Position numbers and translations under genes: made by a program. The notes under the pieces are model-generated. The model was not told the origin of the DNA. It was given only the letters and a program-made list of their open reading frames with translations, and made no database searches. Below, one piece after another: positions 1-41,783 of a stretch of 41,783 bases of DNA (positions within the stretch are counted from its first letter, which is position 1; each line of letters opens with the position of its first letter). The DNA comes from Spirochaetota bacterium (GTDB taxonomy: Bacteria; Spirochaetota; Spirochaetia; B11-G9), in the NCBI GenBank assembly GCA_024280415.1, contig JAJRQE010000079.1, positions 1 to 41,783 on the forward strand, in the 5' to 3' direction.

Positions 1-1080
1 CTACCAGAATTTTCTCCTTTCTTTAATAATAAAATAGAGGAAAAAAGGAACTCCGATAAATGCAGTCATAACCCCAACTGGAATAGAAATACCAGGAATG
101 AGATTCATTCCTATCAAATCTGCACCCAAAAGAATAACAGCACCTACAAGAGCCGATGCAGGAAGAAAAATTTTATGATTATTACCCACCAGACTTCTGG
201 AAATATGAGGTCCGGCCAGTCCAACGAAACCGATAGGCCCCACAAATGCAACAATAGATGCAATCAGAAAACTGGAAATAAGCATAATAAACATTCTAAG
301 TCCGGATGACTTTACTCCAAGAGTTTTTGCTTTTTCATCACCAAAAACCATTACATTTAAATCCAAAACTCTGGTCATAACCAATAGAAATGAAATAAGC
401 AGAACAGAACATACAATAATTAATTCAGAATAACCGAATGAACCAAGCTCACCACGGCTGAATGCCCTGGTAATTTCAAGCTGTTCAGGATTGGCAATAT
501 ATTCAAGAAGTGATCCTCCGGCACGCAGTATATAATTCAGTGCTATACCAGCGAGAATGATAATCTGTACAGTCCCACCTTTCAGAGAGGATATTCCCAA
601 AATGAGCAGGGATGTCAAAATTGAAAAGAGAAAAGCATTTCCTATAATACCATAAATCTGTACATTATAGTTAAGCCCCAAAACGACTGAAACGGCAACC
701 CCAAAATTTGCACCGGATGAAATACCAAGAGTAAAGGGGCTGGCCAGAGGGTTTCTCAGCACAGTCTGGATAAGAGCTCCGGTAAATCCAAAGCCCATTC
801 CTGCAACTATCGCCCAAAGAATTCTGGGAATTCTTAGATTCATTACGATTTGTACTTTTACAGTATCAATTCCTATATTTATCCCTGTTACCCCCTGGAT
901 AACAGCTTTAAAAGATTCTTCTATTGTAATTGTAAAAGGCCCTGTTGAAATCCCGATAAAGACCAGCAGAAAGAGAATTCCCAAAAGTCCGGAAATAAAA
1001 ACCCATTGTTTCTTCTGCCGAAATATATGCTTCTCCTGTTCATTACGGGTATCAACAGGCCTTCTGTATTTTATCACCAT
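1..1080 (-). CDS. FecCD-family ABC permease, probable vitamin B12 importer (BtuC-like)
   Basis: Inner-membrane permease of a BtuCD/FecCD-type importer, 359 aa, the usual family length. After a charged N-terminus the protein is almost wholly hydrophobic, with about 9-10 membrane segments. Residues about 80-125 hold the FecCD signature (LRIPRILWAIVAG, then GALIQTVLRNPLASP), and the C-terminal third holds the coupling-loop region GFVGLAGPHISRSLVG. It lies 19 bp downstream of the binding-protein gene in the same orientation, and both follow a cobalamin riboswitch. That makes B12 or another corrinoid the likely substrate (inference); a siderophore permease would look similar. The stop codon is at the very edge of the window, so the expected ATPase gene (btuD-like) would lie outside. 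Confidence 0.9.
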   Translation of the reverse strand: MVIKYRRPVDTRNEQEKHIFRQKKQWVFISGLLGILFLLVFIGISTGPFTITIEESFKAVIQGVTGINIGIDTVKVQIVMNLRIPRILWAIVAGMGFGFTGALIQTVLRNPLASPFTLGISSGANFGVAVSVVLGLNYNVQIYGIIGNAFLFSILTSLLILGISSLKGGTVQIIILAGIALNYILRAGGSLLEYIANPEQLEITRAFSRGELGSFGYSELIIVCSVLLISFLLVMTRVLDLNVMVFGDEKAKTLGVKSSGLRMFIMLISSFLIASIVAFVGPIGFVGLAGPHISRSLVGNNHKIFLPASALVGAVILLGADLIGMNLIPGISIPVGVMTAFIGVPFFLYFIIKERRKFW

Positions 1081-1099
1081 TCTACGACTATTTTAGTCA

Positions 1100-2209
1100 C
1101 TACAGCCCGGGATAAACAAACACTCCCCTATTATTGAGATCAAAATCCAGTTTCTGAAATCTTGTCAGATATTCCTGATGGATACTCCGGGGATCAAAAT
1201 CTCTAAAAAGATCCGGATCTATTATTTTTGCCAGATATGCAAGGCCAATGAAATATCCCGGTCCTCCTAAAATATCATTATACATAATCCACACCTGATT
1301 ATTCTGAACAGCTTTTATATTGTTCCAGGCAGGTCGCTCTTCTATAATTTTCTTTTCTGCAACCATAGCATCGTAACTATTAACTCCATAACCACCAAAA
1401 CCAGCCATATTCCATCCACTTACTTTAATTATTATATCAGGATTTTTTTCTACAACACTTTCAGCACTTACCTTAGGCAGGGAGACCTGCTCATCCCCAT
1501 AAACATTAAATCCTCCTGCAGCCAGAATTTTGGGATGCCAGCTCGATCCAGGTGCTCCTGTTTTGTAATCCTGGGTACTTTCGAGGTATACCCCGGGTCG
1601 GTCTGCCAGGGAAATCATATCTACCTTTGAGCTAATGCTCTCAAGAACACTATCATAGAAATTCAGATAACTTTCAGCTTTATCGGTTTTATCGAGAATT
1701 TCACCGAGCATTCTTACTTCACTCTCATGATATTCCGGTTTATAAAAAGCCATTTGTATAATCACAAGCTCCGGATCTACAGCAAGAAGTTTTAATCTTG
1801 TCTCACTGTTTCTGGAACCTGTACCAATTATTACTGCATCCGGACTTAGGTCTAAAATTAATTCTGCTTCATTAAATGTTGTTTTTCCTGTTGATGGGAG
1901 TTTACTTAACTGAGGGAAATAATCCGGCCTGTCGGATATAGTTTTCCCTACTCCAACAATCCTTCCTGCAGCATCCAAAGAGCGCATAACTTCTGCACAC
2001 CCGTAATAGGCAACTACAATACGTTTAAGGGGATGTTGGATTGTTATCTCATTACCGGCAGTATCAGTAATAGTTACAGGAACCCAGTCTAAAATATCAG
2101 CTGGTAAAGGGTTTTCGGTCTGTTCTACTTGTCCTGCAGCCCATAAAAAAGATGTTCCCAGAAAAATAAACAGAAAAACAGTAAGAAATTTAAATTTTGT
2201 CTTTTGCAT
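1100..2209 (-). CDS. Periplasmic binding protein of B12-type ABC importer (BtuF/FepB-like)
   Basis: Solute-binding protein, about 369 aa. It has an N-terminal signal peptide (hydrophobic stretch FLTVFLFIFLGTSFLWA), followed by AAGQVEQ, a mature start common in spirochaetes. The body has the class III binding-protein layout, with RIVVAYYGCAEVMRSL in the first lobe and a long linking helix near the middle. An upstream in-frame ATG at 2221 is possible, but its own GGAGGA is the ribosome-binding site of the ATG at 2209, so 2209 is chosen. A cobalamin riboswitch precedes it and the permease follows. The riboswitch supports corrinoid uptake; the protein alone could equally bind ferric siderophore or cobalt chelates. 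Confidence 0.85.
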   Translation of the reverse strand: MQKTKFKFLTVFLFIFLGTSFLWAAGQVEQTENPLPADILDWVPVTITDTAGNEITIQHPLKRIVVAYYGCAEVMRSLDAAGRIVGVGKTISDRPDYFPQLSKLPSTGKTTFNEAELILDLSPDAVIIGTGSRNSETRLKLLAVDPELVIIQMAFYKPEYHESEVRMLGEILDKTDKAESYLNFYDSVLESISSKVDMISLADRPGVYLESTQDYKTGAPGSSWHPKILAAGGFNVYGDEQVSLPKVSAESVVEKNPDIIIKVSGWNMAGFGGYGVNSYDAMVAEKKIIEERPAWNNIKAVQNNQVWIMYNDILGGPGYFIGLAYLAKIIDPDLFRDFDPRSIHQEYLTRFQKLDFDLNNRGVFVYPGL

Positions 2210-2339
2210 AGTATCCTCCATAGATATGCACAGTTTTTGTGTATAACTACAGGAGAACCAGGAATGGGATCCCTTACAGAACTATAATAATAGCTCCCGG
2301 CGAATAATTACTGTTTTTGTCCTTCAGTTCTTATTCTCT

Positions 2340-2530
2340 GGAATCCAAGGCAGGTCTTCTGGCTTACGGATCTTCTTACTTACGCCGCCTTCCCGCAGAT
2401 TTATTTCTACAGTGACTTTCCGGTTTTAACCGGCTGACGCTTTTATCCCCGCTTACAGCTCCGGATGAGCGCAGGATTTTAACCTGCTTTCCTATTCTGC
2501 CGTTTCCGGCCACCTGAATTACCGATAATT
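2340..2530 (-). promoter_or_regulatory. Cobalamin riboswitch (B12 element)
   Basis: Read on the minus strand, the 3' part contains the B12 box AGCCAGAAGACCTGCC (2350-2367 region), a match to the conserved AGYCAGRAGACCTGCC. Upstream are the other conserved blocks: an AATAGGAAAGCAGGTTAAAA-type segment followed by CCTGC, then CGTCAGCCGGTTAAAACCGG, CACTG, and GGGAAGGCGG. Order and spacing match the cobalamin aptamer. It lies between its promoter and the binding-protein gene. The roughly 120 nt after the aptamer contain a GAGCTA/TAGTTC hairpin but no clear U-tract terminator, so translational control is possible (inference). Confidence 0.95.
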
Positions 2531-2547
2531 TTATTATCGTCCGCTTT

Positions 2548-2575
2548 AGTATACATATGTCATTCTGAATATCAA
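2548..2575 (-). promoter_or_regulatory. Sigma-70-type promoter of the B12 riboswitch transcript
   Basis: On the minus strand, TTGATA (2570-2575) and TATACT (2548-2553) are separated by 16 bp. Predicted transcription would start near 2540, just before the aptamer. The uptake genes therefore have a promoter separate from the cbi genes upstream. Confidence 0.7.
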
Positions 2576-2628
2576 TGGATTTTATACAATTTTTTGTAAT
2601 TTAACTAAATTTTATGATCCTGTAATTT

Positions 2629-3363
2629 CTAAAGACGATAACCCCGGGGAGTTATTATTCGGTTTCCTTTGATAAAGGTAGTGGAATTCCCGATTATTAG
2701 AGTAGTTCTCATATCTATCCATTTTTCTCTGTACAAATTCCCCAGAATTGTAATTTTTATCTTCTGCTCATTTCTATAGGCATTCCGCACAAGACCTACA
2801 GGTGTTTCAGAACTTCGGTATTTCAGGAAAATATTTGATGTTTTTTTAAACATCTCAACCCGTTTTATACTCTTTGGATTATATATTACAGTAACAAAAT
2901 CAGCCATGGCAGCCGCCTCAAGGCGCTTTTCGATTAAAGATTTTTCTGTAAGAAGATCACTTAAAGATATTACTGCAAAATCGTGAATTAATGGCGCCCC
3001 CAGCAGGGCAGCTGATGCTGTTGCAGATGTTACTCCCGGAATGACTGTAAGACCTTCTGTTTCCTCTGCTGTTAAAAGTTCAAGGATAAGACCGGACAGA
3101 CCATAAACTCCAGAATCTCCTCCGGATATCAGACAGACACTATTCCCGGAGCGTGCTTTTTCTATGGCAATCCTGCACCTTTCTACTTCCGACCTCATTC
3201 CGTTTGCAATTATCTCTTTTCCGGTAGTTAATTCCAATATAAGATCAATGTAGGTTTTATACCCAACAATAGTATCAGCAGCCTCTAATGCTCTTTTTGC
3301 TTCCGGTATCAGATAGCCTGCTTCTCCTGGACCGGTACTCACTACTGTCAATTTTCCTTTCAT
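2629..3363 (-). CDS. cbiH: Cobalt-precorrin-3 / precorrin-3B C17-methyltransferase
   Basis: SAM-dependent methyltransferase of corrin ring contraction (CbiH/CobJ), 244 aa, near family length for the unfused enzyme. N-terminal TGPGEAGYLIPEAKRALEAA matches the tetrapyrrole-methylase P-loop region in its CobJ form. VGYKTYIDLI and ISGGDSGVYGLSGLILEL are typical CbiH motifs, and residues about 105-125 carry VIPGVTSATASAALLGAPL. It is the last gene of the cbi run; its start overlaps the cbiG stop by 4 bp (ATGA), indicating coupled translation. The cytoplasmic enzyme would act just before CbiF in the anaerobic route. No obvious terminator follows before the riboswitch promoter. Confidence 0.94.
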   Translation of the reverse strand: MKGKLTVVSTGPGEAGYLIPEAKRALEAADTIVGYKTYIDLILELTTGKEIIANGMRSEVERCRIAIEKARSGNSVCLISGGDSGVYGLSGLILELLTAEETEGLTVIPGVTSATASAALLGAPLIHDFAVISLSDLLTEKSLIEKRLEAAAMADFVTVIYNPKSIKRVEMFKKTSNIFLKYRSSETPVGLVRNAYRNEQKIKITILGNLYREKWIDMRTTLIIGNSTTFIKGNRIITPRGYRL

Positions 3364-4106
3364 CCTGCATCCTCCCTGGCAATAGCAACTGTTACACCAT
3401 TGTGGCTTTTACGTTTTTGTATGAGTTTTGTATTTCGTCCGGCAATGAGGGCACATGGTTCTGACACACCAGGAATATCAAAAAACTTCCTGGCTGTTTT
3501 TGATTCTGTACTATATCCGGAGAAATTTCTAATTCTGGCTGTTGATATAAAAACAAGGGGTATATCAAGTTCTTCGAACGCTTTAATAAGCCCGGGTTCA
3601 TTCCTCTTTATATCTGCAGAAGCACCAGTACGAACTTTATCCATGGAAAGATTTACTTCATTAAGAGAAGTTTCTATTGCTGCAACTACATTCTCTGCCT
3701 GAATACCCTTTCTGCACCCTATACCAAGTATTATTTTTTTATTTGTATCTGAAGCTGTTGTAATAACAGGAACTGCATCTATAATCCTTCCGACTCTTGC
3801 TGCAAGAGAATTTGCCCCTCCTTCATGTCCGGAAAGAGCTGCAATTGAAAACCGTCCGGCATCATCAACAATTACAACTGCAGGATCGGTATATTTGTTC
3901 TTAATCTGATCGGCTATTACCCGGAAAACTATCCCTGCTGCCATTATAAAAACAAGTCCATCATAGCTGTTGAAGTTATCCGAAACCCACTCTTTTAACA
4001 GCCCTCTTCCACGCAGGTCGACAAGGACAGACTCTGCCAGTTTTTCGGAAAGAATCCTCCCTGTTGCAAGACTGCTTTCAGTTATCCCTATAACTGCGGT
4101 TCTCAC
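3360..4106 (-). CDS. cbiG: Cobalt-precorrin-5A hydrolase (short form)
   Basis: CbiG opens the delta-lactone of cobalt-precorrin-5A, releasing acetaldehyde; it is specific to the anaerobic pathway. The CbiG_N signature is present (LVFIMAAGIVFRVIA, then VIVDDAGRFSIAALSGHEGG and ANSLAARV), followed by the C-terminal domain block LGIGCRKGIQAENVVAAIE. At 248 aa it is about 100 residues shorter than the well-known enteric CbiG. The N-terminal domain runs almost directly into CbiG_C, so the middle domain appears missing or much reduced. It overlaps cbiF and cbiH by 4 bp each. Confidence 0.92.
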   Translation of the reverse strand: MRTAVIGITESSLATGRILSEKLAESVLVDLRGRGLLKEWVSDNFNSYDGLVFIMAAGIVFRVIADQIKNKYTDPAVVIVDDAGRFSIAALSGHEGGANSLAARVGRIIDAVPVITTASDTNKKIILGIGCRKGIQAENVVAAIETSLNEVNLSMDKVRTGASADIKRNEPGLIKAFEELDIPLVFISTARIRNFSGYSTESKTARKFFDIPGVSEPCALIAGRNTKLIQKRKSHNGVTVAIAREDAG

Positions 4107-4879
4107 ATAGAGATCCTTTCTTCTTTTTCATTCCCCTCTCTGTATCCATGGGTGAACCCGGGGTTATAAAGCTTTGATTTCTCATAATTTCCGGAAAAAA
4201 CATAGCCTATAAAAACAAGAGCCTGTCTTGTTATTTTGTTGTCCTTTACGAGTTTGTCCAGTTCTCCCAGTTCTCCACGAACAATTGTTTCATCAGGCCA
4301 TCCAACTCTGTATACAACAGCAACAGGAACAGAAGACCCATAGTGGGGAATAAGCTTTTCCATAATCAGTTCAGGTCTGTCAACACTTAAAAAAAGGACA
4401 ATAGTTGCTTTTGATTTTCCAAGAATACTTAAATCTTCACTTTCAGGCACTTTGGTACGCCCGGAAAGACGTGTTAATATTACACTTTGACTTACACCTG
4501 CAAGAGTAAGCTGCTGCTCAAGAGAGGCCGCAGCCGCCTGAAAGGATGATACTCCGGGAACTATCTCAAACTCTATGTTTTCTTCTCTAAGAAAGTCTAT
4601 CTGCTCCTGTATTGCCCCGTATATGGAAGGATCACCTGTATGGAGTCTTACAAAAACACCCTCATTCCCCTTATAGGATCTGTACACAGAGCTGACTTCA
4701 TCGAGAGTCATTCCTGCAGAATTAAAAATAGCTGTCTCTTCAGAGCAAACAGAAAGGAGCGCCGCAGGCACAAGAGAACCGGTGTAAATAACTACATCTG
4801 CCGTGGATAACAGTCTGTGACCTTTCATGGTCAGTAATTCAGGATCTCCCGGACCTGCTCCGACAAAGTAGACCTTCAC
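4103..4879 (-). CDS. cbiF: Cobalt-precorrin-4 C11-methyltransferase
   Basis: CbiF/CobM methylates C11 of cobalt-precorrin-4 using SAM. The protein has 258 aa, the family length. The start MKVYFVGAGPGDPELLT and the next block VIYTGSLVPAALLSVC are highly characteristic of CbiF. VRLHTGDPSIYGAIQEQ and IEFEIVPGVSSFQAAAASL complete the SAM-binding methylase core. It overlaps cbiL and cbiG by 4 bp each, so the four genes cbiL-F-G-H form one translationally coupled block. Confidence 0.95.
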   Translation of the reverse strand: MKVYFVGAGPGDPELLTMKGHRLLSTADVVIYTGSLVPAALLSVCSEETAIFNSAGMTLDEVSSVYRSYKGNEGVFVRLHTGDPSIYGAIQEQIDFLREENIEFEIVPGVSSFQAAAASLEQQLTLAGVSQSVILTRLSGRTKVPESEDLSILGKSKATIVLFLSVDRPELIMEKLIPHYGSSVPVAVVYRVGWPDETIVRGELGELDKLVKDNKITRQALVFIGYVFSGNYEKSKLYNPGFTHGYREGNEKEERISM

Positions 4880-5616
4880 TTTGCTGCCCCTCCTGTATTT
4901 ACCAATACAATGGAAAGATATCCTTCAATATTTTCAGTAAGATCTTCCATGGAAAGGACTTTTATCTCATCCTTCATGGTGGCTCTGCTTACAAAACCGC
5001 TTGAAGAAAGCAGATTTTTAAATTTCAAATATTTCCGAAGTTTACCAAGATCTCTTCCGACTTTCATTATGACAACTGTATCATGCATATCCAGTAATTT
5101 ATCGAGTTCCTCCGGATTTTCAGGGAGAGGGGTTACACAGAAGGTTTCCCCTCCAAGAGCAATATCATTCTCCAAAACTGCAGCTGCTGCCTGAAAACTT
5201 GATATCCCCGGAACAGTAAAAATTGAAACCCCTGTATTCAGCTTATTCCAGGAGTTTCGAAAATACTGAAAGGTGCTGTATAGGGAAAGGTCTCCCAGGG
5301 TTGTAAAGACAACATGCTGCCCCTCTTTTACCAGTTCAAGTACATTACCAGCAACTTTATCCCAGTACCTCTCTCTTTCCACTTTACTCCGGGTCATGGT
5401 ATAGGGAAGATCCCTGTAATTAAGCTCATGACCAACTGCTCCTGTAATTATTTCTCTTGCAATGGATCTCTCTTTTGCCGCTGACTTTGGGGTAAGGACT
5501 AAATCAGCTTTTTCCAGGATCTTAAGAGCTTTAACTGTCAGGAGTTCAGGATCTCCAGGGCCCAGACCAACAGCACTCAACAATCCATTTACACCTAGAC
5601 TACTATCATTATGCAT
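4876..5616 (-). CDS. cbiL: Cobalt-precorrin-2 / precorrin-2 C20-methyltransferase
   Basis: CbiL/CobI methylates C20 of (cobalt-)precorrin-2, the first committed corrin methylation. It has 246 aa. The N-terminal SAM site is AVGLGPGDPELLTVKALKIL. TLGDLSLYSTFQYFRN and TVPGISSFQAAAAVLENDIA are CbiL-type motifs, and a C-terminal SIVLVN strand ends the fold. The ATG at 5616 lies inside the end of cbiE (22-bp overlap), with GGAG about 10 nt upstream. It is the second of the four class-III tetrapyrrole methylases here. They share ancestry, so assignment rests on the C20-type N-terminal and middle motifs. Confidence 0.92.
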   Translation of the reverse strand: MHNDSSLGVNGLLSAVGLGPGDPELLTVKALKILEKADLVLTPKSAAKERSIAREIITGAVGHELNYRDLPYTMTRSKVERERYWDKVAGNVLELVKEGQHVVFTTLGDLSLYSTFQYFRNSWNKLNTGVSIFTVPGISSFQAAAAVLENDIALGGETFCVTPLPENPEELDKLLDMHDTVVIMKVGRDLGKLRKYLKFKNLLSSSGFVSRATMKDEIKVLSMEDLTENIEGYLSIVLVNTGGAAK

Positions 5617-6227
5617 ATACTGTACTTCTCCTCTCTCTCTATTGTTTCCATATCGGTTTCAAGGATTCTCTCATTTGGATAGGAAAGATTTTCTGCTATA
5701 AAAATTTTTCTGTTTTTACAGCCCTTTTTTCTCATGTAGCAGGCAATCAGAAAGGGGGTATTTCTGTAATCCGTAAGAATACCAAGAGGTCTCCTGCTAA
5801 AAATATACTTATCTAAAAAATCCAGAGGCTTTCCATGAAGGGAGATAACAGCTGCATCCTTCCACTCCATTTGCACTCTGGAAAAGGCAAGCTGCATGCT
5901 GCTTAAGCCAGGAATAACAAAGTACTCTTTTTTAGAAAATTTTCTCTCGATTACTCCCAAAAGGCTGTAGAACCCTGGATCCCCGGATACAAGAACTGCT
6001 ATTTTTTTTTGACCCCTGTTATTATTTATAAAGTCTACTACATTCGGGAACCTGCCATCCAGGCAAAAAGTCTCCAGTCCGGTATAGCCGAAAAGATCCA
6101 GCTGTCTGCGACCCCCTGCAAGAATATCTGCTTTTTCGACCTCGTTTCGTGCAGCCGGCAGAAGATAATCCATACTGCCCGGACCGATCCCCACCACAGA
6201 AAACTTATACATCTTCTGCACATCCAT
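5595..6227 (-). CDS. cbiE: Cobalt-precorrin-7 C5-methyltransferase
   Basis: CbiE is the methylase half of the C5,C15-methyltransferase/decarboxylase pair. It has 210 aa with SVVGIGPGSMDYLLPAARNE at the N-terminus, ADILAGGRRQLDLF, LVSGDPGFYSLLGVI and VIPGLSSMQLAFSRV. These are all CbiE hallmarks, and the length fits CbiE alone, not the fused CobL. The usual partner CbiT (C15 methyltransferase/decarboxylase) is neither fused nor adjacent; the next gene downstream is cbiL. It overlaps cbiD by 23 bp and cbiL by 22 bp. Confidence 0.92.
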   Translation of the reverse strand: MDVQKMYKFSVVGIGPGSMDYLLPAARNEVEKADILAGGRRQLDLFGYTGLETFCLDGRFPNVVDFINNNRGQKKIAVLVSGDPGFYSLLGVIERKFSKKEYFVIPGLSSMQLAFSRVQMEWKDAAVISLHGKPLDFLDKYIFSRRPLGILTDYRNTPFLIACYMRKKGCKNRKIFIAENLSYPNERILETDMETIEREEKYSICIMIVV

Positions 6228-7335
6228 AGCCCGTGGAATCAGAGAGAATATCTCCTCTTAAGTTTAAAATAACTGAGTTAAGTATGACTGGTTTCTTAAT
6301 CAGATAGAGGGATCTTTCTATAATGGAATCGTTCAGCAAGTCAAAAGCCCCGGAAGCTCCCTCTTCCCTTAAAAAAGAAGCCCCTCTCTCTGCCATTTTC
6401 ATTTTAAGAAGTAATTTTATTTTTTCCGGCGCAAGCCCCGCAACTCCTGCATATGCAGCAAGAGTTTCCAGTCTGGCATCTCCATACTTGCTGTGGGTAT
6501 TAAAAATTCCAGATGCAAGTTTTGACATTTTCCCTATATGCCCTACAAGTATAATTCTCCCAAACCCCATTCTACCGGCTGTTTTAAGGGTAAATCCTGC
6601 ATGATCACCAAACTTAACAATACGTTCATCCCCTGCTTTATAATGCTTTTTTACAAAGGCCTCTCCAACATATCCAAATACCAGGAATATGACAGAAGGA
6701 TCCTCTATCCTGGCAACATGAAGGGATATGGCAATAGATGCAGTATAAGCTTTTGATGATTTGGGTTCTACAATACCGGAAGTTCCCAAAATGCTTATGC
6801 CACCCACAATACCAAGCCTTGGGTTCCATGTTTCCGATGCAAGCTTTACACCATCCGGAACTGAAAGCTCCACCTTAAATCCTTTACCTTCGGGAATCAG
6901 GGGTGTAAGGGATTTTTTTATCATATTCCTGGGATTATGGTTTATAGCCCACTCCCCGACTCTTACAGGAAGACCTTCCTTCGTTATCTTTCCGATCCCC
7001 ACCCCGGCAGTTATAATTATTTCCTTTGTATCTATTATTATAACTCTGGCACGGAACTCATATCCATGAGTTATATCATCTTCATCATCACCACTATCTT
7101 TAATTATTCCGCATTCTGCAGAATCCATACTGAAAGAGGCGTTAACTACAGGAAGAATAAGAACTTTTTTATTTTTCAGCTCAATATCTATTTTACTGAT
7201 TATTTTTTGGGATAACAGCATAAGAGCCGCAGCCTTAGCCGCTCCCTGCATGGCAGTACCCGTTGTAAAGCCCCTCTGAAGCCCCTCAACCTTACCTAAA
7301 ACTTCCCTGTAGGAATCTATTAAATCCTTACTCAC
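6205..7335 (-). CDS. cbiD: Cobalt-precorrin-5B C1-methyltransferase
   Basis: CbiD is the anaerobic-pathway C1 methylase, unrelated in fold to the other corrin methylases. It has 376 aa, a normal length. The N-terminal family signature RGFTTGTAMQGAAKAAAL is present, as are GILGTSGIVEPKSSKAYTAS-like and GRIILVGHIGKMSKLASGIFN blocks. The canonical signature often reads TGTCAAAA; here the position after TGT is Ala-Met-Gln, a modest variation. It sits 33 bp after cbiC and overlaps cbiE. Confidence 0.95.
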   Translation of the reverse strand: MSKDLIDSYREVLGKVEGLQRGFTTGTAMQGAAKAAALMLLSQKIISKIDIELKNKKVLILPVVNASFSMDSAECGIIKDSGDDEDDITHGYEFRARVIIIDTKEIIITAGVGIGKITKEGLPVRVGEWAINHNPRNMIKKSLTPLIPEGKGFKVELSVPDGVKLASETWNPRLGIVGGISILGTSGIVEPKSSKAYTASIAISLHVARIEDPSVIFLVFGYVGEAFVKKHYKAGDERIVKFGDHAGFTLKTAGRMGFGRIILVGHIGKMSKLASGIFNTHSKYGDARLETLAAYAGVAGLAPEKIKLLLKMKMAERGASFLREEGASGAFDLLNDSIIERSLYLIKKPVILNSVILNLRGDILSDSTGYGCAEDV

Positions 7336-34752: not shown

Positions 34753-34773
34753 TTGTCGAAAGGAGTATACACT

Positions 34774-35628
34774 ATGATTAGAAGAGTTTTATTAGTTCTG
34801 CTTATCTGTACCTTTGCTTTACCCGCTTTTGCAGGGGGAGCAAGTGAAAAGCCCCAAAATGACACCAACGCTGCTATGGAGCGGACTGTCAATGATCCAA
34901 GGTTATTCCAGCCGGGAAAACTTACAGTTGCAACAGGCGAACCTGTTTATCCGCCATGGATGATGAATGATGATCCTGCAAGCGGTGAAGGTTTTGAAAA
35001 TGCACTGGTCTATGCCCTTGCAGCAAAGCTGGGTTTTGCAAAGGAAGATGTTGTCTGGGTTCGTCAGACTTTTGACCAGGGGATTGCTCCAGGAGACAAG
35101 CCATACGATTTTAATCTTCAGCAATACTCTGTAACCGAAGTACGACGTGAGTTTGTTGATTTTTCCAATGTTTACTACCAGCCGGAAAAAGCTGTTGTAG
35201 CCCTTCCCGAAAGTAATTTTTCCAAGGCCCGATCCTTTGACGATCTACGTAAAGCCAGATGGGGTGCTACAATTGGAACCGCGGATCTCGATTATATTGA
35301 AAATGTAATTGGAGTAAGTGATGCAGCGGTATTTAACGAACAGGTAGGAACATTTCAGGCACTTCTTGGAGGTCAGATTGATGCTACAGTTATTTCGCTC
35401 CCGACTGCACTTTTTGTAACTGCAGTTCAGGTTCCTGAAGCTACTATAGCCGCCATACTCCCTTCCGATCCCAACGATCTGGGATTTGGATTTGTGTTTG
35501 AAAAGGGAAATCCAATTGTTGAATGGATAAATGAAGGGCTCGATGCAATAATTGCCGATGGGGTTGTTGCAGATCTAACATCAAAATATTTAATAGGTAA
35601 TGAAAACATACCGGAGATTTCCAAATGA
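34774..35628 (+). CDS. Amino-acid-type ABC substrate-binding protein
   Basis: 284 aa from the ATG at 34774, which has AGGAG 8 nt upstream; a TTG at 34753 would precede it. The signal peptide VLLVLLICTFALPAFA is followed by GGASEKPQND, a typical spirochaete mature start. The body is the polar amino-acid family (SBP_bac_3): KLTVATGEPVYPPWMM, YDFNLQQYSVTEVRREFVDF, GATIGTADLDYIENVIGV. The ligand is an amino acid or related small molecule. It overlaps the permease gene by 4 bp. Confidence 0.92.
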   Translation: MIRRVLLVLLICTFALPAFAGGASEKPQNDTNAAMERTVNDPRLFQPGKLTVATGEPVYPPWMMNDDPASGEGFENALVYALAAKLGFAKEDVVWVRQTFDQGIAPGDKPYDFNLQQYSVTEVRREFVDFSNVYYQPEKAVVALPESNFSKARSFDDLRKARWGATIGTADLDYIENVIGVSDAAVFNEQVGTFQALLGGQIDATVISLPTALFVTAVQVPEATIAAILPSDPNDLGFGFVFEKGNPIVEWINEGLDAIIADGVVADLTSKYLIGNENIPEISK

Positions 35629-36473
35629 ATTTAAAGCGCCCCGCACCCCATAAAAGGTCGGGGCGTGCTCTGTCAGCCAGAGAAAAATATATCCCTACTG
35701 CAATTAGTGTTGTTACTGTGTTGGCAGTTGTATTTATTTTAAGAGCAGTTATAACCAGTTCAGGCCAGTGGCCAAGAATTAAAGCTCAGTTTTTCAGTAT
35801 GGATGCAATTATCGAAGTTTTTCCAAAGGTTCTGAAAGGATTTGGAGTAAATATGACAGTATGGATAATTTCCCTTGTTGTTATTGCTGTCTGGGCACTC
35901 TTGCTTGCAGTTTTCAGGTCACTCCATGGACCATGGTTTGCACCCCTCAGAATCTTCTCTATAATCTATATCGATCTTTTCAGAGGACTCCCTTCTCTGC
36001 TTCTGGTTCTGCTCTTTGGTTTCGGAATTCCTGCTCTGCAAATTCCCGGATTACCAAGAAGCAGTCTGTTCTGGGGAGCATCCGCTATGATTATGAGTTA
36101 TTCTGCCTATGCTTCTGAAGTTTACAGATCCGGTATTGATGCTGTTCATGACGGACAGAGATCTGCAGCAAAGGCTTTAGGCCTGACCCAATGGCAGACA
36201 CTTTTTCACTGCATTCTGCCCCAGGCAGTCCGTAATGTTCTGCCTTCGCTCCTGAACCTTGCAGTTGCTCTGCAGAAAGATGTTGCCCTGTTAAGTGTAC
36301 TGGGTGTCAGGGATGCAGTCCGGGAAGCTCAGATATATACTGCCCGTACATTTAACTATTCATCACTCATAGCTGCAGCAGCCCTCTTTCTGGCAGTCAC
36401 AATTCCAATGGCTCGTTTTACCGATTATATAACTAAAAGAGACCGCCAGCGCAGACTGCAGGGAGCTTCCTAG
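35625..36473 (+). CDS. Amino-acid ABC transporter permease (HisM/GlnP type)
   Basis: 282 aa with about five membrane helices. The permease EAA-type loop is SAAKALGLTQWQTLFHCILP, preceded by YASEVYRSGIDAVHDGQ; FRGLPSLLLVLLFGFGIPAL is also typical of this family. An N-terminal basic tail of about 20 residues precedes the first helix. It overlaps the binding-protein gene by 4 bp and abuts the ATPase gene. Confidence 0.92.
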   Translation: MNLKRPAPHKRSGRALSAREKYIPTAISVVTVLAVVFILRAVITSSGQWPRIKAQFFSMDAIIEVFPKVLKGFGVNMTVWIISLVVIAVWALLLAVFRSLHGPWFAPLRIFSIIYIDLFRGLPSLLLVLLFGFGIPALQIPGLPRSSLFWGASAMIMSYSAYASEVYRSGIDAVHDGQRSAAKALGLTQWQTLFHCILPQAVRNVLPSLLNLAVALQKDVALLSVLGVRDAVREAQIYTARTFNYSSLIAAAALFLAVTIPMARFTDYITKRDRQRRLQGAS

Positions 36474-37217
36474 ATGTATCGAATTGAAATAAATAACCTG
36501 ACAAAATACTACGGTGATAATCTTGTACTCAACAATGTCAGTCTAAAGGTAAAGAACCATGAGGTAGTCTGCTTAATAGGTTCATCAGGATCAGGAAAAT
36601 CTACACTTCTCAGATGTGTCAATGATCTCGTACCTTTCAATGAAGGAGATATAAAACTGGATGGTGTATCAATACACGATTCAAGTTTTAGTGCCAATGA
36701 ATTATACAAAAGGATTGGAATAGTTTTTCAGGCATACAACCTGTTCCCCCATATGACGGTAATTAATAATATTACACTTGCTCCCAGAAAAGTTCACCGT
36801 ACATCCCGTTCTGAAAGTGAAGAGTATGCCGAGGAACTGCTTGGATTATTTGGATTAGGCGATTTCGCAAATTCATACCCCGAACAGTTATCAGGGGGTC
36901 AACAGCAGAGAGTTGCAATTATCAGAGCTATGGCAAACCGCCCGGATGTACTAATGCTGGATGAAGTTACAGCAGCTCTGGATCCTGAACTCATTGGCGA
37001 TGTACTTTCAGTAATCAAAGATCTGCGAAAAAAGGGGATGACTATGCTTATTGTCACCCATGAAATGAGTTTTGCCCGAAGTGTATCGGATCGGGTCTGT
37101 TTCCTTGACGGAGGGAGTATTATCGAAGAAGCCTCCCCTGAAAAACTATTTTCCAAACCTGAAAACCCAAGAACGCAACAGTTTCTACAACGAATTATTG
37201 AAGCCGGCAGACTGTAG
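36474..37217 (+). CDS. Amino-acid ABC transporter ATPase (GlnQ/HisP type)
   Basis: 247 aa. Walker A GSSGSGKSTLLRCVN, Q-loop VFQAYNLFPHMTV, signature LSGGQQQRVAIIRAMA, Walker B VLMLDEVTAALDPELIGD and the H-loop in VTHEMSFARSVSD are all present. The family usually has DEPTSALDPE; here it reads DEVTAALDPE, which keeps the catalytic Glu. It starts directly after the permease stop and is the third gene of the operon. Confidence 0.94.
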   Translation: MYRIEINNLTKYYGDNLVLNNVSLKVKNHEVVCLIGSSGSGKSTLLRCVNDLVPFNEGDIKLDGVSIHDSSFSANELYKRIGIVFQAYNLFPHMTVINNITLAPRKVHRTSRSESEEYAEELLGLFGLGDFANSYPEQLSGGQQQRVAIIRAMANRPDVLMLDEVTAALDPELIGDVLSVIKDLRKKGMTMLIVTHEMSFARSVSDRVCFLDGGSIIEEASPEKLFSKPENPRTQQFLQRIIEAGRL

Positions 37218-37234: not shown

Positions 37235-38044
37235 TCACAGACTTCTTTTCCCCTTCCCTGTATAGATATGATTAACAGGATCTATCCTCCGCATTGGTCT
37301 CTGAATTGTCTTTTCTTCATGTATATGAGCAACAAGACCAGGAACCCTTGCCATTATGAAAAAAGAATTTGCTAGTTCAGGAGCGATTTCAAGTACCAAA
37401 AGCAGAGCCCCAACTGCACCGTCGACATTAATTGGTATATTTTCCCCTGTGGATTTTTGAATTCCATCCTTAAGACCTGTCAGAAGGCGAACCCAGGTAT
37501 CACCAAGTCCAAGCTCATCCGCGAAATCCAGTAACTTCGCTGTTCGGGGATCATTTTTATGTATCCTATGACCAAATCCCGGAAGTTTACGTTTCTGCTC
37601 TTTATATTGGGAAACAAGATTTTTAACTGCTGCAGAAAAGTCTCTGACCGAATCTTTTGAATTATCCAGAATTACCTGAAGTTCCATTAACATTCTCATA
37701 GCATTCTCTATAGCTCCACCGTGATGTTCATTAATAGTAAGAATACCCGCTGCCAGAGCTCCGTTATAAGGAGCACCAGTTGAGGCTGATGTCAAGGCTG
37801 CAAGGGCAGAGGGAGGGGTTACTCCATGATCGATACAGGAAACCAGCATAGTATCGAGCATCCTACCCTCCCTTTCTGTTGGGAGCTCACCCTTCAGCAT
37901 TAAAAAAACCATGTCACTGAAACTCCGCTCACCCATAAGCTCATCGAGGCGATATCCATGTATTCTAATTTCATCTTTATTGATTTCTGTTATTTTTGTT
38001 TCCCAGGGTTTTGAACTATCATTTTCTAATTCAATCTCTGACAT
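37235..38044 (-). CDS. Citryl-CoA lyase / citrate-synthase-superfamily protein
   Basis: 269 aa from the ATG at 38044, with GGGAG 8 nt upstream; an ATG at 38074 is less likely. It is shorter than citrate synthase and resembles the citryl-CoA-lyase module that also forms the C-terminus of ATP-citrate lyase. CIDHGVTPPSALAALTSAST, ILTINEHHGGAIENAMRML, LPGFGHRIHKNDPRTAKLL and PINVDGAVGALLLVL parallel those enzymes. The HH-GG, GHR and NVDG segments include the expected active-site histidine region. It is the last gene of an operon with SucC- and SucD-like genes. It would cleave a CoA thioester of citrate or a related acid to acetyl-CoA plus an oxo acid (inference). Confidence 0.85.
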   Translation of the reverse strand: MSEIELENDSSKPWETKITEINKDEIRIHGYRLDELMGERSFSDMVFLMLKGELPTEREGRMLDTMLVSCIDHGVTPPSALAALTSASTGAPYNGALAAGILTINEHHGGAIENAMRMLMELQVILDNSKDSVRDFSAAVKNLVSQYKEQKRKLPGFGHRIHKNDPRTAKLLDFADELGLGDTWVRLLTGLKDGIQKSTGENIPINVDGAVGALLLVLEIAPELANSFFIMARVPGLVAHIHEEKTIQRPMRRIDPVNHIYTGKGKRSL

Positions 38045-38137
38045 ATGGAATCTCCCATAATCGCTTTCGAGCACTTTCCTCTGATTTATTCTGATAGCTC
38101 TTTTCTATATTCAATTCACGGAAAGTCTCTGCCGCTA

Positions 38138-38194
38138 AATGATAAAAAGAACCTGTATTTATTTCAAGATAATAACTCATCACTTTTTATCATT
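38138..38194. repeat. Inverted-repeat element, copy 2
   Basis: AATGATAAAAAG (38138-38149) and CTTTTTATCATT (38183-38194) are perfect inverted arms separated by 33 bp, the same arms as at 23655-23712. Arm-to-arm spacing differs by 1 bp and the interiors differ in sequence. The element overlaps the stop codon of the SucD-like gene and lies about 94 bp upstream of the start of the citryl-CoA-lyase-like gene. Confidence 0.7.
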
Positions 38195-39095
38195 CCTCCA
38201 GTTTATCTAAAATTTTTTTAACTTCTCCGGATATATCACTAATGTCATCTACAACAACAGCCCCTGCCGCTCTCAGACTGTCGACCTTTCCCTGATATGT
38301 CCCCCGATTACCCTCTATTATAGCACCTGCATGGGAAAATTGAGTACCTTCCTGTGCTTCACGTCCTCCGACATAGGCTACTACTGGCTTTGTAATCCTT
38401 CCTCCTGAAAGAAGTTCGGCCACATCCTCCTCCTGGGAGCCTCCAATTTCACCAAGTATAACTATTAGTCTAGTATCGACATCTTCCTGAAAGAGTTTTA
38501 CAATTTCCGGGTGGGGCAATCCAATAAGAGAATCCCCTCCCACATGAACAATAGTACTCTGACCAATTCCATCCTTATTGAGATAGTAAGCTGTAGCGGT
38601 AGTAAGACCTCCGCTTCTTGAACTTATACCTACAGATCCGGACTTAAACCATTTTTTTACGCTGTCTGCATTTCCACCAATCATTCCAAGAATACCTACA
38701 CCAGGAGATAGAATCCCAAGGGTATTGGGGCCTGTAAATCTGGCTCCGTACTGTTTTGCAGCTCGGGATATTGCCATTACATCGTAAACGGGAACCCTGT
38801 CTGGAACAATTACTGCGAGCTTTATTCCGGAAGCAAATGCTTCAATAACTGCATTTTTTACGATAGGTGCAGGTACAAAAACAACAGTTATATCTATTGT
38901 CCCATGGATTTTTACAGCCTCGGCTACGGTGTCATAAACAGGAACGCCCAGAACTTCCAGACCGGCTTGCCCTGGTGTTACACCGGCAATTACTTGAGTA
39001 CCGATATCTAACATTAGCTTTGTTCTGGCCCGACCCTCTCTTCCTGTTATTCCCTGAACAAGTACTTTTTTGTTTTTTCCAATAAGGATGCTCAT
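38190..39095 (-). CDS. Succinyl-CoA-synthetase alpha-like protein (citryl-CoA synthetase small subunit-like)
   Basis: 301 aa, full length for SucD. The CoA-binding Rossmann part is VLVQGITGREGRARTKLML, then AGVTPGQAGLEVLGVPVYD. The phosphohistidine loop TQFSHAGAIIEGNRGTYQGK contains the catalytic His. The domain between has SVGISSRSGGLTTATAYYL and HVGGDSLIGLPHPEIV. It overlaps the SucC-like gene by 4 bp. In a split ATP-citrate lyase this would be the small subunit; ordinary succinate-CoA ligase or malate-CoA ligase are alternatives. Confidence 0.88.
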   Translation of the reverse strand: MSILIGKNKKVLVQGITGREGRARTKLMLDIGTQVIAGVTPGQAGLEVLGVPVYDTVAEAVKIHGTIDITVVFVPAPIVKNAVIEAFASGIKLAVIVPDRVPVYDVMAISRAAKQYGARFTGPNTLGILSPGVGILGMIGGNADSVKKWFKSGSVGISSRSGGLTTATAYYLNKDGIGQSTIVHVGGDSLIGLPHPEIVKLFQEDVDTRLIVILGEIGGSQEEDVAELLSGGRITKPVVAYVGGREAQEGTQFSHAGAIIEGNRGTYQGKVDSLRAAGAVVVDDISDISGEVKKILDKLEE

Positions 39096-40633
39096 ACACT
39101 GCCCTCCTTATCAAGACCGGGGATTGGAAGATCTATTCGCCCACCCCCATTCCCATGGGCAAAACATTCCACTTCGCAGGCAAGGCATTCTGTACATTTA
39201 CCTTTTGCTACATCCTCTTTACTTATGTTTAGAACAGGAACTCCATTTTTTTCTTCCAGAATGCCGCTTTGACATTCTGAAATACAAACTTTTGATGTAC
39301 AGCTGAGACATAAAGCATAATTAAATCCAACAGTTCCATTTGTAACTGTTTTAAAACTATAATCTGATATTAAATTTCTGTTATTTACTTTTAATGTTTC
39401 TGTATTATTTTTTAAATTACCCTGGGCTATAAGCTGGTTCATTTCTGATGCACATTCACTTACTGAAGTATCTTTTCCATAACAGCGAACAGTAGGTTTT
39501 AAATCCTTTGTATAATCCTCTAAAATCCTGATTGCTCTCTCCTCACCATTTCCCCCGAGGCGAAAAACTACAGGGATATCCGGGTTAAGCTCTCTTAATG
39601 CCTTGACAATACCCATGGCGCTGTAAAACTGCTCCTGGCTTGCAACACCGGAACCGGAACCAAAATAACCGTCAATATTTTTTTGTGACAGAATAATTTT
39701 TGCAGCCCGATATATTTTTGAAGCAGGAGGATTTCCGGAAGTATCACAAAAATTTGCTACCTTATATCCGAATTTTTGGAGGGCATCCATACTCATCATA
39801 GATCCACCGCCTCCGGCACCGTGAAAACCAAGAACTCCTGCTCCCTTCTTAAAATTATCTTCCAGCTGTATGAAATAAAAAGTACCCCTGTAGTCATCTT
39901 TTTCCACTGCATATGCAATTTTTTCAAGTTCTGTAGGGGGATGCCCTAGTTCACGGGCTATTTCAATACCAAATTCAGGATGCCGGAAAACAGCGTAATC
40001 ATCTACCGTAATATGACAATCTGCTGCTATAATTTTACCTTTGTCTGTTAGTACAAGAGGATTGATCTCCAGGCTTTTTGCTTCTGTTTTAATGGCTGTC
40101 TTTACCAGAGAAATAAGAGAGTCGGAAAGAAGGTTTAATACTTTTCCGGAAATTCCAGTTTTTTTTAGAAGAGGAATAAGCTCAAAGGGTAAAGGAATTT
40201 TATCCGGATTTATATCCAGAAAAAAAACTGATTTTGGATATTTTGAGACAATCTCTTCTATTCCGGAACCACCCCTGGAACTGAACACCAGTGTGGGAGA
40301 AGATTTTCCGGATACAAGAGTAATTCCTGCAAAATATTCCTGTTTAATATCCAGTTTTTCCTCAAAAAGAAGAGTCTCTATTTTATAGCCTTTTATGCTT
40401 TGACTAAGCATTTCGCTTATATAGGTCTGAAGTTCTTCTAAGGTCATAGGAAATTTAACAAGCCCTAACGCAGCTCTTCCTGTTGTAAAAACCTGAGCCT
40501 TAAGTACACCGGTTCCAATTTCTTTAAATACATTTTCTGCATCATCTACAGATTTAATTATAATACCCCTGGGGATCTTAAATCCGCCTTCTGCAAGAAG
40601 ATTTTTTCCCTGATATTCAAACAACTTTGACAT
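39092..40633 (-). CDS. SucC-like ATP-grasp acyl-CoA synthetase subunit fused to a 2x[4Fe-4S] ferredoxin domain
   Basis: 513 aa. Residues about 1-400 follow succinyl-CoA synthetase beta: the start LFEYQGKNLLAEGGFKIPRG, ATP-grasp strands, LEINPLVLTDKGKIIAADCH, DYAVFRHPE, then GFHGAGGGGSMMSMDAL and VVFRLGGNGEERAIRIL. Residues about 425-513 are a ferredoxin-type tail with CLSCTSKVCISEC (Cx2Cx4Cx3C) and CTECLACEVEC (Cx2Cx2Cx3C), the eight cysteines for two [4Fe-4S] clusters. SucC normally ends near residue 390 without any cluster. It overlaps the SucD-like gene by 4 bp and directly follows the ADP-ribosylglycohydrolase-like gene, with no intergenic gap. Confidence 0.88.
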   Translation of the reverse strand: MSKLFEYQGKNLLAEGGFKIPRGIIIKSVDDAENVFKEIGTGVLKAQVFTTGRAALGLVKFPMTLEELQTYISEMLSQSIKGYKIETLLFEEKLDIKQEYFAGITLVSGKSSPTLVFSSRGGSGIEEIVSKYPKSVFFLDINPDKIPLPFELIPLLKKTGISGKVLNLLSDSLISLVKTAIKTEAKSLEINPLVLTDKGKIIAADCHITVDDYAVFRHPEFGIEIARELGHPPTELEKIAYAVEKDDYRGTFYFIQLEDNFKKGAGVLGFHGAGGGGSMMSMDALQKFGYKVANFCDTSGNPPASKIYRAAKIILSQKNIDGYFGSGSGVASQEQFYSAMGIVKALRELNPDIPVVFRLGGNGEERAIRILEDYTKDLKPTVRCYGKDTSVSECASEMNQLIAQGNLKNNTETLKVNNRNLISDYSFKTVTNGTVGFNYALCLSCTSKVCISECQSGILEEKNGVPVLNISKEDVAKGKCTECLACEVECFAHGNGGGRIDLPIPGLDKEGSV

Positions 40634-41783
40634 TTAATACTCCGAAAAAGCTATACTGTTAAAAAGTGTTCTTCCAGGTTTAAGTTTTGCCAGACCTACC
40701 ATACCTGTTGGAAAAAAATCTTTATCTTCGAAAGTTATAACTTTTTTACCATCAATATAGCATCTTAATAATCCACCAAGTGCTTCTACTTTCAAAGTAT
40801 ACTTTTTACCCGTTTCCCATGAAAAATTAATCTCTTCGAGTACAGAATTATCATGGTCACGTTTGATTAAGGCGGCTTTATTACTATTATTAAGTCCAAA
40901 AAAGTAGGCTCTTTCTGCACCAATTGATCTAAAAGTCAGAAGATGACTATCTCCGTATTCCGGAATAAGAACTGCCTCTACTGTATAGTCTTTGGAATAA
41001 TACGGGCCAGTATAGAGCCCAAAAGTTTCATTTGTAATTACATTAAGCTGACCTTTTTCTATACTCCAGGCTCCACCTGTCAGAGAACATCTACTAAGAC
41101 CTTTAAATTCTTCCACTTCTTCAGCAAAATCAATTTTAAACTTCTTTTTTCCGGATATTGAATAGTTATATATATTTAGTTCCCCTAAAAATTTTTCACT
41201 GTCAATTCCTCTTACCAGAAGCCCGGCTTCATCTACAGCAAAGGGAACATCAGGAATTGTCCAATCCACAGTAAATTCCTTTTCTGATTCAGGAAACAGT
41301 TCTTTACCTGACAGTGTGTTTTTTGTAGAGGAGTCTCTAACGTAGGGGGCAATACTAATGCGCTGGCCGCTGAATTTCTCTACCATAAGTTCAATATGCA
41401 TTTCCTGTCCCGGATAGACAGTAGGTGTGAATGTTGGAGAGTAACGTTCATCATCAAAGTCTTCTCTTCTGTAATATGGTTTATAAAATATTCTGGATTC
41501 ATCTTCTCTTTTTATTCTATCTAGAGTAAATGTAATGTGTCCTTCTCTTTTTCCCCCGGGTTTGTTCTTTTTTAGTGGAGACAGATAATCACTGGAAGTT
41601 CTTATTCCGTGAGTAGTTCCGGGAATTGTAAAATCAAAATAAATATCATCAGAAAAAGTACCTTTCTTCCATTCTTCAGGAATACTATCTTCTAATTGGT
41701 TTAGACCAAGAATAGCAAGTTCCTTTGATACTGTTGGCAAATCCAGAATATTTAATGCCCCGGATATACTGCTGGCAGCATGA
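40634..41783 (-). CDS. ADP-ribosylglycohydrolase-like protein, partial (C-terminal part)
   Basis: The reading frame runs off the window edge: the codons before the first TTG at 41740 are open to 41783 and read HAASSISGALNILDLPTVSK, so no start is in view. The visible about 383 residues contain IPEEWKKGTF near the N-terminus, as in ADP-ribosylglycohydrolase proteins. A middle beta-rich domain follows, then a C-terminal LamG/concanavalin-like domain (GLYTGPYYSKDYTVEAVLIP, YTLKVEALGGLLRCYIDGKK). The family assignment comes from the overall arrangement; the catalytic N-terminal domain is outside the window. It is the first visible gene of the citryl-CoA-type operon and stops directly before the SucC-like ATG. 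Confidence 0.65.
   Translation of the reverse strand, partial: HAASSISGALNILDLPTVSKELAILGLNQLEDSIPEEWKKGTFSDDIYFDFTIPGTTHGIRTSSDYLSPLKKNKPGGKREGHITFTLDRIKREDESRIFYKPYYRREDFDDERYSPTFTPTVYPGQEMHIELMVEKFSGQRISIAPYVRDSSTKNTLSGKELFPESEKEFTVDWTIPDVPFAVDEAGLLVRGIDSEKFLGELNIYNYSISGKKKFKIDFAEEVEEFKGLSRCSLTGGAWSIEKGQLNVITNETFGLYTGPYYSKDYTVEAVLIPEYGDSHLLTFRSIGAERAYFFGLNNSNKAALIKRDHDNSVLEEINFSWETGKKYTLKVEALGGLLRCYIDGKKVITFEDKDFFPTGMVGLAKLKPGRTLFNSIAFSEY

Follow-up and report, generated by a model that had tools for sequence, protein, structure and literature searches.

Gene content of the locus

The window analysed here (41,783 nucleotides) is an entire contig, G000:C96, of a 3.9-Mb spirochaete genome that is 97.7% complete and consists of 338 contigs. 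We studied a minus-strand quartet at 37235-41783 which, reading from 41783, comprises the end of an ADP-ribosylglycohydrolase (ARH) gene, a gene for a SucC-like coenzyme A (CoA) ligase subunit extended by a ferredoxin-like tail (sucC-Fd), a sucD-like gene and a gene for a short lyase of the citrate synthase family (Table 1). A preliminary description made from the sequence had placed four genes here, and all are present. The tight packing that it reported for all but the last junction holds, as sucC-Fd starts directly after the ARH stop codon (0 bp) and overlaps sucD by 4 bp. The last gap is larger: the lyase reading frame was mechanically called from 38074, whereas the start used in its relatives corresponds to the ATG at 38044, which makes the gap 145 bp.

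Table 1. Features of the ferredoxin-tailed ligase-lyase locus (window coordinates)
Feature	Position	Strand	Remarks
ARH, 3' part	40634..41783	-	End of ARH domain, beta-rich linker domain, C-terminal CBM66-like domain; 5' part on G000:C66
SucC-Fd, ATP-grasp acyl-CoA ligase beta subunit with predicted C-terminal 2x[4Fe-4S] ferredoxin domain	39092..40633	-	513 amino acids (aa)
Acid-binding loop GVASQEQ	39629..39649	-	Residues 329-335; from alignment with 6hxq, 6hxj, 3ufx and 6mgg
Ferredoxin tail	39113..39361	-	Residues about 425-507; Cys 442, 445, 450, 454, 480, 483, 486, 490
SucD-like alpha subunit	38190..39095	-	301 aa; phosphohistidine loop SHAGAI, IGG...S insert, SRSGGLT substrate loop
49-codon frame in the sucD-lyase gap	38031..38180	-	Ends in the ancestral SucD C-terminus IPYVRD; compare the SucD end of L003, ...LGIPYVRD
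Short citryl-CoA lyase (predicted)	37235..38044	-	269 aa from the conserved start; C-terminal half of the citrate synthase family

The quartet had been taken for a complete unit, but it is rather the tail of a nine-gene importer and catabolic operon. The ARH gene is truncated by the contig edge, with 382 aa inside the window, and the window ends in a 136-base overlap, exact throughout, with the start of contig C66. Upstream, C66 carries the catalytic half of the ARH, a solute-binding protein, two permeases, a second ARH and a LacI-type regulator. The joined operon reads LacI, ARH, two ATP-binding cassette (ABC) permeases, binding protein, ARH with a CBM66-like end, sucC-Fd, sucD and lyase. The families were checked in the genus-mate G004 (LacI, PF03747, BPD_transp_1, SBP_bac_1, PF03747). 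In the genus-mates G001 and G004, which are metagenome-assembled genomes (MAGs) of Spirochaetia/Spirochaetaceae, the order ARH - (nitrilase) - sucC-Fd - sucD - lyase is kept; a family check of the one extra gene, located between ARH and sucC in G001, identified a carbon-nitrogen hydrolase. The family-mate G007 has the order ARH - sucC-Fd - sucD - lyase. Because of this LacI/ABC importer/ARH gene set, seen in the joined contigs and in G004, the enzymes of this spirochaete family are part of a regulated uptake operon.

A CoA ligase subunit with a ferredoxin tail

SucC-Fd matched Pfam PF08442 (7e-36) and scored above the cut-off of PF16114, the citrate-binding domain of ATP-citrate lyase (31.6 bits; cut-off 26.8). 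It carries the ATP-grasp motif EINPL, and its predicted structure had a pLDDT of 89. The proposal that a SucC-like protein is joined here to a two-cluster ferredoxin was borne out, as all eight tail cysteines, spaced C-x2-C-x4-C-x3-C and C-x2-C-x2-C-x3-C, are invariant in 49 aligned homologues; the acid loop is likewise invariant in these proteins from G329 to Q335. Because of this invariance, we rejected a chance occurrence of ferredoxin-like cysteines or a misassembled fusion. The tail is a predicted 2x[4Fe-4S] ferredoxin domain, whose cysteines would bind the clusters. It remained below the cut-off of the curated Pfam Fer4 models (Fer4_9, 17.4 bits; cut-off 27). Its sole profile match in the PDB was a weak one (E=0.0022), to 8ys5_D, the ferredoxin-like subunit of a 2-oxoglutarate:acceptor oxidoreductase (OGOR); both contain two CxxC-type 4Fe-4S motifs, which are fused here to a CoA ligase. 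No description of a ferredoxin-fused SucC or CcsA was found in a literature search of open-licence papers.

The lyase

The lyase exceeded the cut-off of NCBIfam NF004869 (PRK06224, citryl-CoA lyase) with 246.9 bits against 212, and its best PDB match was the Hydrogenobacter citryl-CoA lyase 6hxp (1.4e-56). Besides RVPGLVAH, it contains HHGGA, GFGHR and NVDG, where the catalytic His/His/Asp of the citrate synthase fold are located. Family score and motifs thus predict a citryl-CoA-cleaving enzyme. In the lyase tree, the operon lyases were not cleanly split from 6hxp and ATP-citrate lyase, whose branches are long.

A second short protein of the citrate synthase family (280 aa) was noticed in the genus-mate G001 (L116:4769-5611, plus strand, on G001:C219). 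By reading only, it sits in an apparent phosphonate/surface-sugar gene cluster, next to nucleotidyltransferase-like and phosphonopyruvate-decarboxylase-like proteins. Its product may be a phosphonate analogue of citrate.

Comparison with known enzymes

Split citrate cleavage by citryl-CoA synthetase (CCS) and citryl-CoA lyase (CCL) is already known. The Hydrogenobacter thermophilus enzymes, CcsAB and Ccl (6hxq, 6hxp), are likewise three separate proteins, SucC-like, SucD-like and half a citrate synthase. In the SucC tree, SucC-Fd formed a clade of its own (support 100/100), separate from a clade of ordinary SucC of the same taxonomic class with the Thermus and Francisella proteins (100/99); CcsA, AclB and a spirochaete ATP-citrate lyase (ACL)-like protein lay on the far side. 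The SucD tree similarly separated operon SucD (100/99), ordinary SucD (99/96) and CcsB with ACL-like proteins (100/98). When long-branch rows were included, one row was misplaced across the operon/ordinary split, while the clades were clean without them, also with CcsB added. The SucC-Fd and operon SucD clades sit on the branch between SucCD and CCS/ACL; since the trees are unrooted, they do not give the nearness of the new branch to either side. Both subunits also stayed below the NCBIfam cut-offs for SucC, SucD and MtkA, the latter being compared by its NCBIfam model only. At least one further ordinary SucC was found in 22 of the 25 carrier genomes checked (the exceptions being the window genome, G007 and G432). 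Separate trees, missed cut-offs and co-occurring ordinary SucC led us to reject an ordinary SucCD; the preliminary description had asked for a check of placement inside the ordinary succinate-CoA ligases, and the two subunits fall outside them.

As in SucCD, the ATP-grasp fold, the phosphohistidine loop SHAGAI and EINPL are kept, while the substrate-loop motifs of both subunits differ from those of SucCD, as do the clades, and an ordinary SucC usually occurs alongside. SucC-Fd has GGGGS, (G/S)GNPPAxKxY and the PPTE...D(D)xRG insert of CcsA, which SucC lacks. The IGG...S insert and the SRSGGLT loop (SGGLTT) of the operon SucD are shared with the small subunit of CCS, CcsB, where ordinary SucD has SGTLT. 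GGGGS/GGGAS, (G/S)GNPPA, PPTE, IGG and SGG are common to CCS/ACL and not found in SucCD, although not every ACL has every motif. The differences from CcsA are the ferredoxin tail and the presence of GVASQEQ and RLGG in place of ANNT and RRNG, and both ligase subunits form clades apart from CcsA/CcsB. With the ACLs, i.e., AclAB (Chlorobium, 6hxj) and human ACLY, the same partial reactions would be expected, and the citrate-binding Pfam domain is over its cut-off; however, the window subunits are unfused, they include the tail, and the ANFT and RR citrate contacts are absent. The acid loop accordingly reads GVASQEQ in SucC-Fd, ANFT/ANNT in ACL/CCS and GGIxRCD in SucC. Phe347 of human ACLY lies in the ANFT motif. 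This residue shifts conformation between the citryl-CoA and product states (PMC10115795). Because the ANFT/ANNT loop and the RR motif are replaced, the SucC-Fd family is, judged by its sequence, a neighbouring branch and not CCS itself.

An ACL-like pair without a ferredoxin tail was observed in another Spirochaetia genome (L025:645-3426, on G009:C301). It consists of a SucC-like protein whose loop reads ANNTFID and, running off the locus, a SucD-lyase-like protein.

Distribution and conserved neighbours

A scan of 84,980 species genomes yielded 315 encoded relatives of SucC-Fd, of which the best 80 were used for statements on length and taxon. These 80 were all essentially full length, tail included, and none was from a named cultured isolate, as judged by titles. 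By depositor labels they represent at least 15 phyla: Zixibacteriota, Chloroflexota, Aminicenantes, KSB1, Marinimicrobia, Calditrichota, Coatesbacteria, WOR-3, Gemmatimonadetes, Acidobacteria, Thermodesulfobacteriota, Cloacimonetes, Hydrothermota, Planctomycetota and others. No fusion was found in spirochaetes outside the family of the window genome, either in 59 relatives or, at a strict E-value, in 393 genomes. Since the fusion is confined to this family within the spirochaete phylum sample, its horizontal acquisition appears likely.

Conservation of the cluster across genomes, a check also proposed in the preliminary description, was determined by tblastn, because the longest-ORF (open reading frame) caller was unreliable at GC-rich loci. 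Among the 75 loci offering 1 kb or more of room, 71 had SucD downstream on the same strand, and among the 62 offering 1.9 kb or more, 52 had the lyase. Outside spirochaetes, the operon runs on into aconitase-type genes, of the LeuCD/homoaconitase type, and isocitrate dehydrogenase (IDH)-family genes. Thirty-two loci offered at least 6 kb; they contained an HD-domain protein (23), an aconitase-family large subunit (20), an isocitrate/homoisocitrate-dehydrogenase-family gene (16) and a PrpD-family gene (8). Upstream or divergent genes encode KorA, KorB, KorG and HdrA2 in L069 and L083, and fumarase and fumarate reductase in L071 and L074, while L088 combines the latter two with KorB/KorG. In L067, HdrA adjoins with KorG and hydrogenase-like genes. 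A single 565-aa protein directly after sucC-Fd in L077 combines SucD and the lyase, which is the architecture of AclA. This fusion is the strongest single argument for a joint action of the three proteins.

The HD-domain protein (177 aa; e.g., L075:8020-8553, plus strand), which lies between the lyase and the aconitase, was the commonest partner after SucD and the lyase. In L067, from an Anaerolineae MAG, HdrA-type, hydrogenase-like and other redox genes (653-6867, minus strand) are divergent from the SucC-Fd operon. The ferredoxin-tailed operons of L075, L087, L110, L073 and L089 each contain two LeuC/LeuD-type dehydratase pairs and one dehydrogenase with the pocket motif SPIVxLR, compared with SLNVxLR in IDH; one of the two pairs may act on another acid.

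Proposed function and alternatives

Gene content, conservation, separate clades, signature motifs, a natural fusion and neighbours are the observed basis for reading SucC-Fd, SucD and the lyase as a split ATP-citrate lyase of a third branch, that with the ferredoxin tail; its spirochaete copy would have been recruited for catabolism. We consider this reading fairly probable; the substrate, the direction, the binding of the clusters and their role are what we infer. The dedicated citryl-CoA-type system suggested in the preliminary description is in line with the lyase score, the clades outside SucCD, the conserved cluster, the fusion and the neighbouring enzymes of the tricarboxylic acid (TCA) cycle. 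Judging from the motifs, SucC-Fd/SucD would phosphorylate the SucD histidine with ATP and form citryl-CoA or a homologue. The lyase, to go by its family and motifs, would then split this product into acetyl-CoA and a 2-oxoacid, which would be oxaloacetate in the case of citrate. The three proteins would thus jointly act as a split, reversible ATP-citrate lyase. In the known relatives, all steps are reversible. In many uncultured anaerobes, the system probably serves a ferredoxin-linked TCA cycle by cleaving or forming citrate. In the spirochaete family the branch would have moved into the LacI-regulated uptake operon; the acid that it probably cleaves there would be set free from a compound that is imported and processed by the ARH. 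The OGOR-subunit match of the tail, together with the OGOR and HdrA neighbours at several loci, leads us to the tentative guess that the tail lets the ligase bind to such a partner, a ferredoxin-dependent 2-oxoacid oxidoreductase or an HdrA-type protein, or exchange electrons with it. A bolder reading, which seems improbable to us, is that of a third class of citrate-cleaving enzyme that physically couples CoA ligation to low-potential electron flow, the tail serving as electron-carrying subunit of, or docking site for, 2-oxoglutarate:ferredoxin oxidoreductase/HdrA in a redox-gated reductive TCA complex of many uncultured anaerobic phyla.

Several findings weigh against a split ATP-citrate lyase. 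VASQEQ and RLGG stand where ACL/CCS have their citrate contacts, the N-x-T loop and the second Arg of RR; ten of the 62 loci have no nearby lyase; and the OGOR-subunit match of the tail is weak. The spirochaete genomes contain 2-oxoacid oxidoreductases, none of which is over the KorA cut-off. The operon dehydrogenase has Ile in place of an Asn of E. coli IDH that contacts isocitrate. Furthermore, a full-length citrate synthase was found in 17 of the 22 carriers checked, including the window genome, and the operon is therefore not needed just to make citrate. Nor is the spirochaete system needed for 2-oxoglutarate, as the window genome also contains, elsewhere, an IDH-family gene and a canonical aconitase of AcnA size. 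In G433 (Anaerolineae, completeness unknown), the operon lyase, aconitase and dehydrogenase were the only family members found, which fits citrate as the substrate there.

The invariant acid loop GVASQEQ, unique to this family, could also mean that the same chemistry is applied to another acid, such as 2-methylcitrate, homocitrate or another 2-hydroxy tricarboxylate, which would place the operon in 2-oxoacid chain lengthening or shortening with its (homo)aconitase- and homoisocitrate-dehydrogenase-type partners. The neighbours indeed score best against models of homoaconitase/isopropylmalate isomerase and homoisocitrate dehydrogenase, and the SPIVxLR pocket of the operon dehydrogenase, the two LeuCD pairs of several operons, the PrpD-family gene in 8 of 32 and the ordinary citrate synthase of most carriers point the same way. 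We nevertheless regard another acid as rather unlikely, since the lyase retains its citryl-CoA lyase motifs, the nearby genes for OGOR, fumarase and fumarate reductase suggest the TCA cycle, and the G433 operon copies are the only family members found. Somewhat less doubtful, though still not what we expect, is that the wider family works oxidatively, converting acetyl-CoA and oxaloacetate via citryl-CoA to citrate and ATP as an energy-saving replacement of citrate synthase. ATP-citrate lyase runs in this direction in Desulfobacter, some carriers are without a full-length citrate synthase, and genes for pyruvate dehydrogenase E1, dihydrolipoyl dehydrogenase or lipoyl ligase adjoin in L059, L062 and L103; however, most carriers also have citrate synthase, and the OGOR/HdrA neighbours suit the reductive direction equally well. 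A divergent ligase of succinyl-CoA or malyl-CoA, beside which an unrelated lyase gene happens to lie, would explain why Thermus SucC and Aeropyrum SucD give higher pairwise scores than CcsA/CcsB and why fumarase and fumarate reductase genes lie upstream in L071, L074 and L088. With both subunits in separate clades and below the SucC, SucD and MtkA cut-offs, an ordinary SucC present too in 22 of 25 carriers, and the SucD-lyase fusion of L077, such a ligase is very improbable.

What appears to be new is the ferredoxin-tailed branch itself, with its broad distribution and, in spirochaetes, its ARH/ABC context. Screens for the reductive TCA cycle depend on ATP-citrate lyase or the Hydrogenobacter-type citryl-CoA synthetase as markers. 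In a survey of 52,515 MAGs, the former occurred in 207 and the latter in only 10 (PMC9802188). Should the ferredoxin-tailed branch cleave citrate, a citrate-cleaving step would exist in many deep-branching anaerobes (Zixibacteria, Aminicenantes, Anaerolineae, KSB1, Marinimicrobia and others) that such screens would overlook or that automatic annotation would call succinate-CoA ligase. Iron-sulfur clusters built into a CoA ligase would, if confirmed, represent a new coupling of substrate activation to redox state, and the branch would fill the evolutionary path from SucCD to ATP-citrate lyase, fusion included.

The ARH gene and the surroundings of the operon

The glycohydrolase identity given to the first gene in the preliminary description was right. 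The catalytic half on C66 matched PF03747 (E=4.4e-54), and its ORF contains GWDTDCNAGN; the metal-binding Asp motifs, DDD and DTDCN, are present. The 382-aa part in the window, which includes only the end of the domain, gave no Pfam match above cut-off. Intact orthologues measure 698-724 aa, and two that were scanned matched PF03747 at about 1e-54. Score and motifs predict a hydrolase of an ADP-ribosyl or other N-glycosidic bond. The C-terminal domain resembled the CBM66 structure 4b1m (TMt 0.80, 24% identity, 149 columns, in a model with low overall confidence) and is of the concanavalin-A-fold type; the AlphaFold model was poor over the catalytic half. Both the ferredoxin fusion and the glycohydrolase neighbour had been singled out as odd: the fusion proved widespread, while among the loci examined the ARH occurs only in those of this spirochaete family, and was rejected as a member of the core system.

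In the genus-mates, the SucD C-terminus (IPYVRD) is at the end of a sucD that overlaps the lyase ATG. In the window, one frame of the sucD-lyase gap still ends ...IPYVRD*, because of which the gap is best read, on sequence, as the product of extra sequence near the 3' end of sucD (a putative insertion remnant). On present evidence, the 49-codon ORF was rejected as a gene, since it ends in the SucD C-terminus of genus-mates and is read as a remnant of the sucD end.

On the plus strand, at 34753-37217, lies an apparent polar amino-acid ABC transporter (binding protein, permease, ATPase), whose genes converge with the lyase gene, 17 bp from the lyase stop codon.

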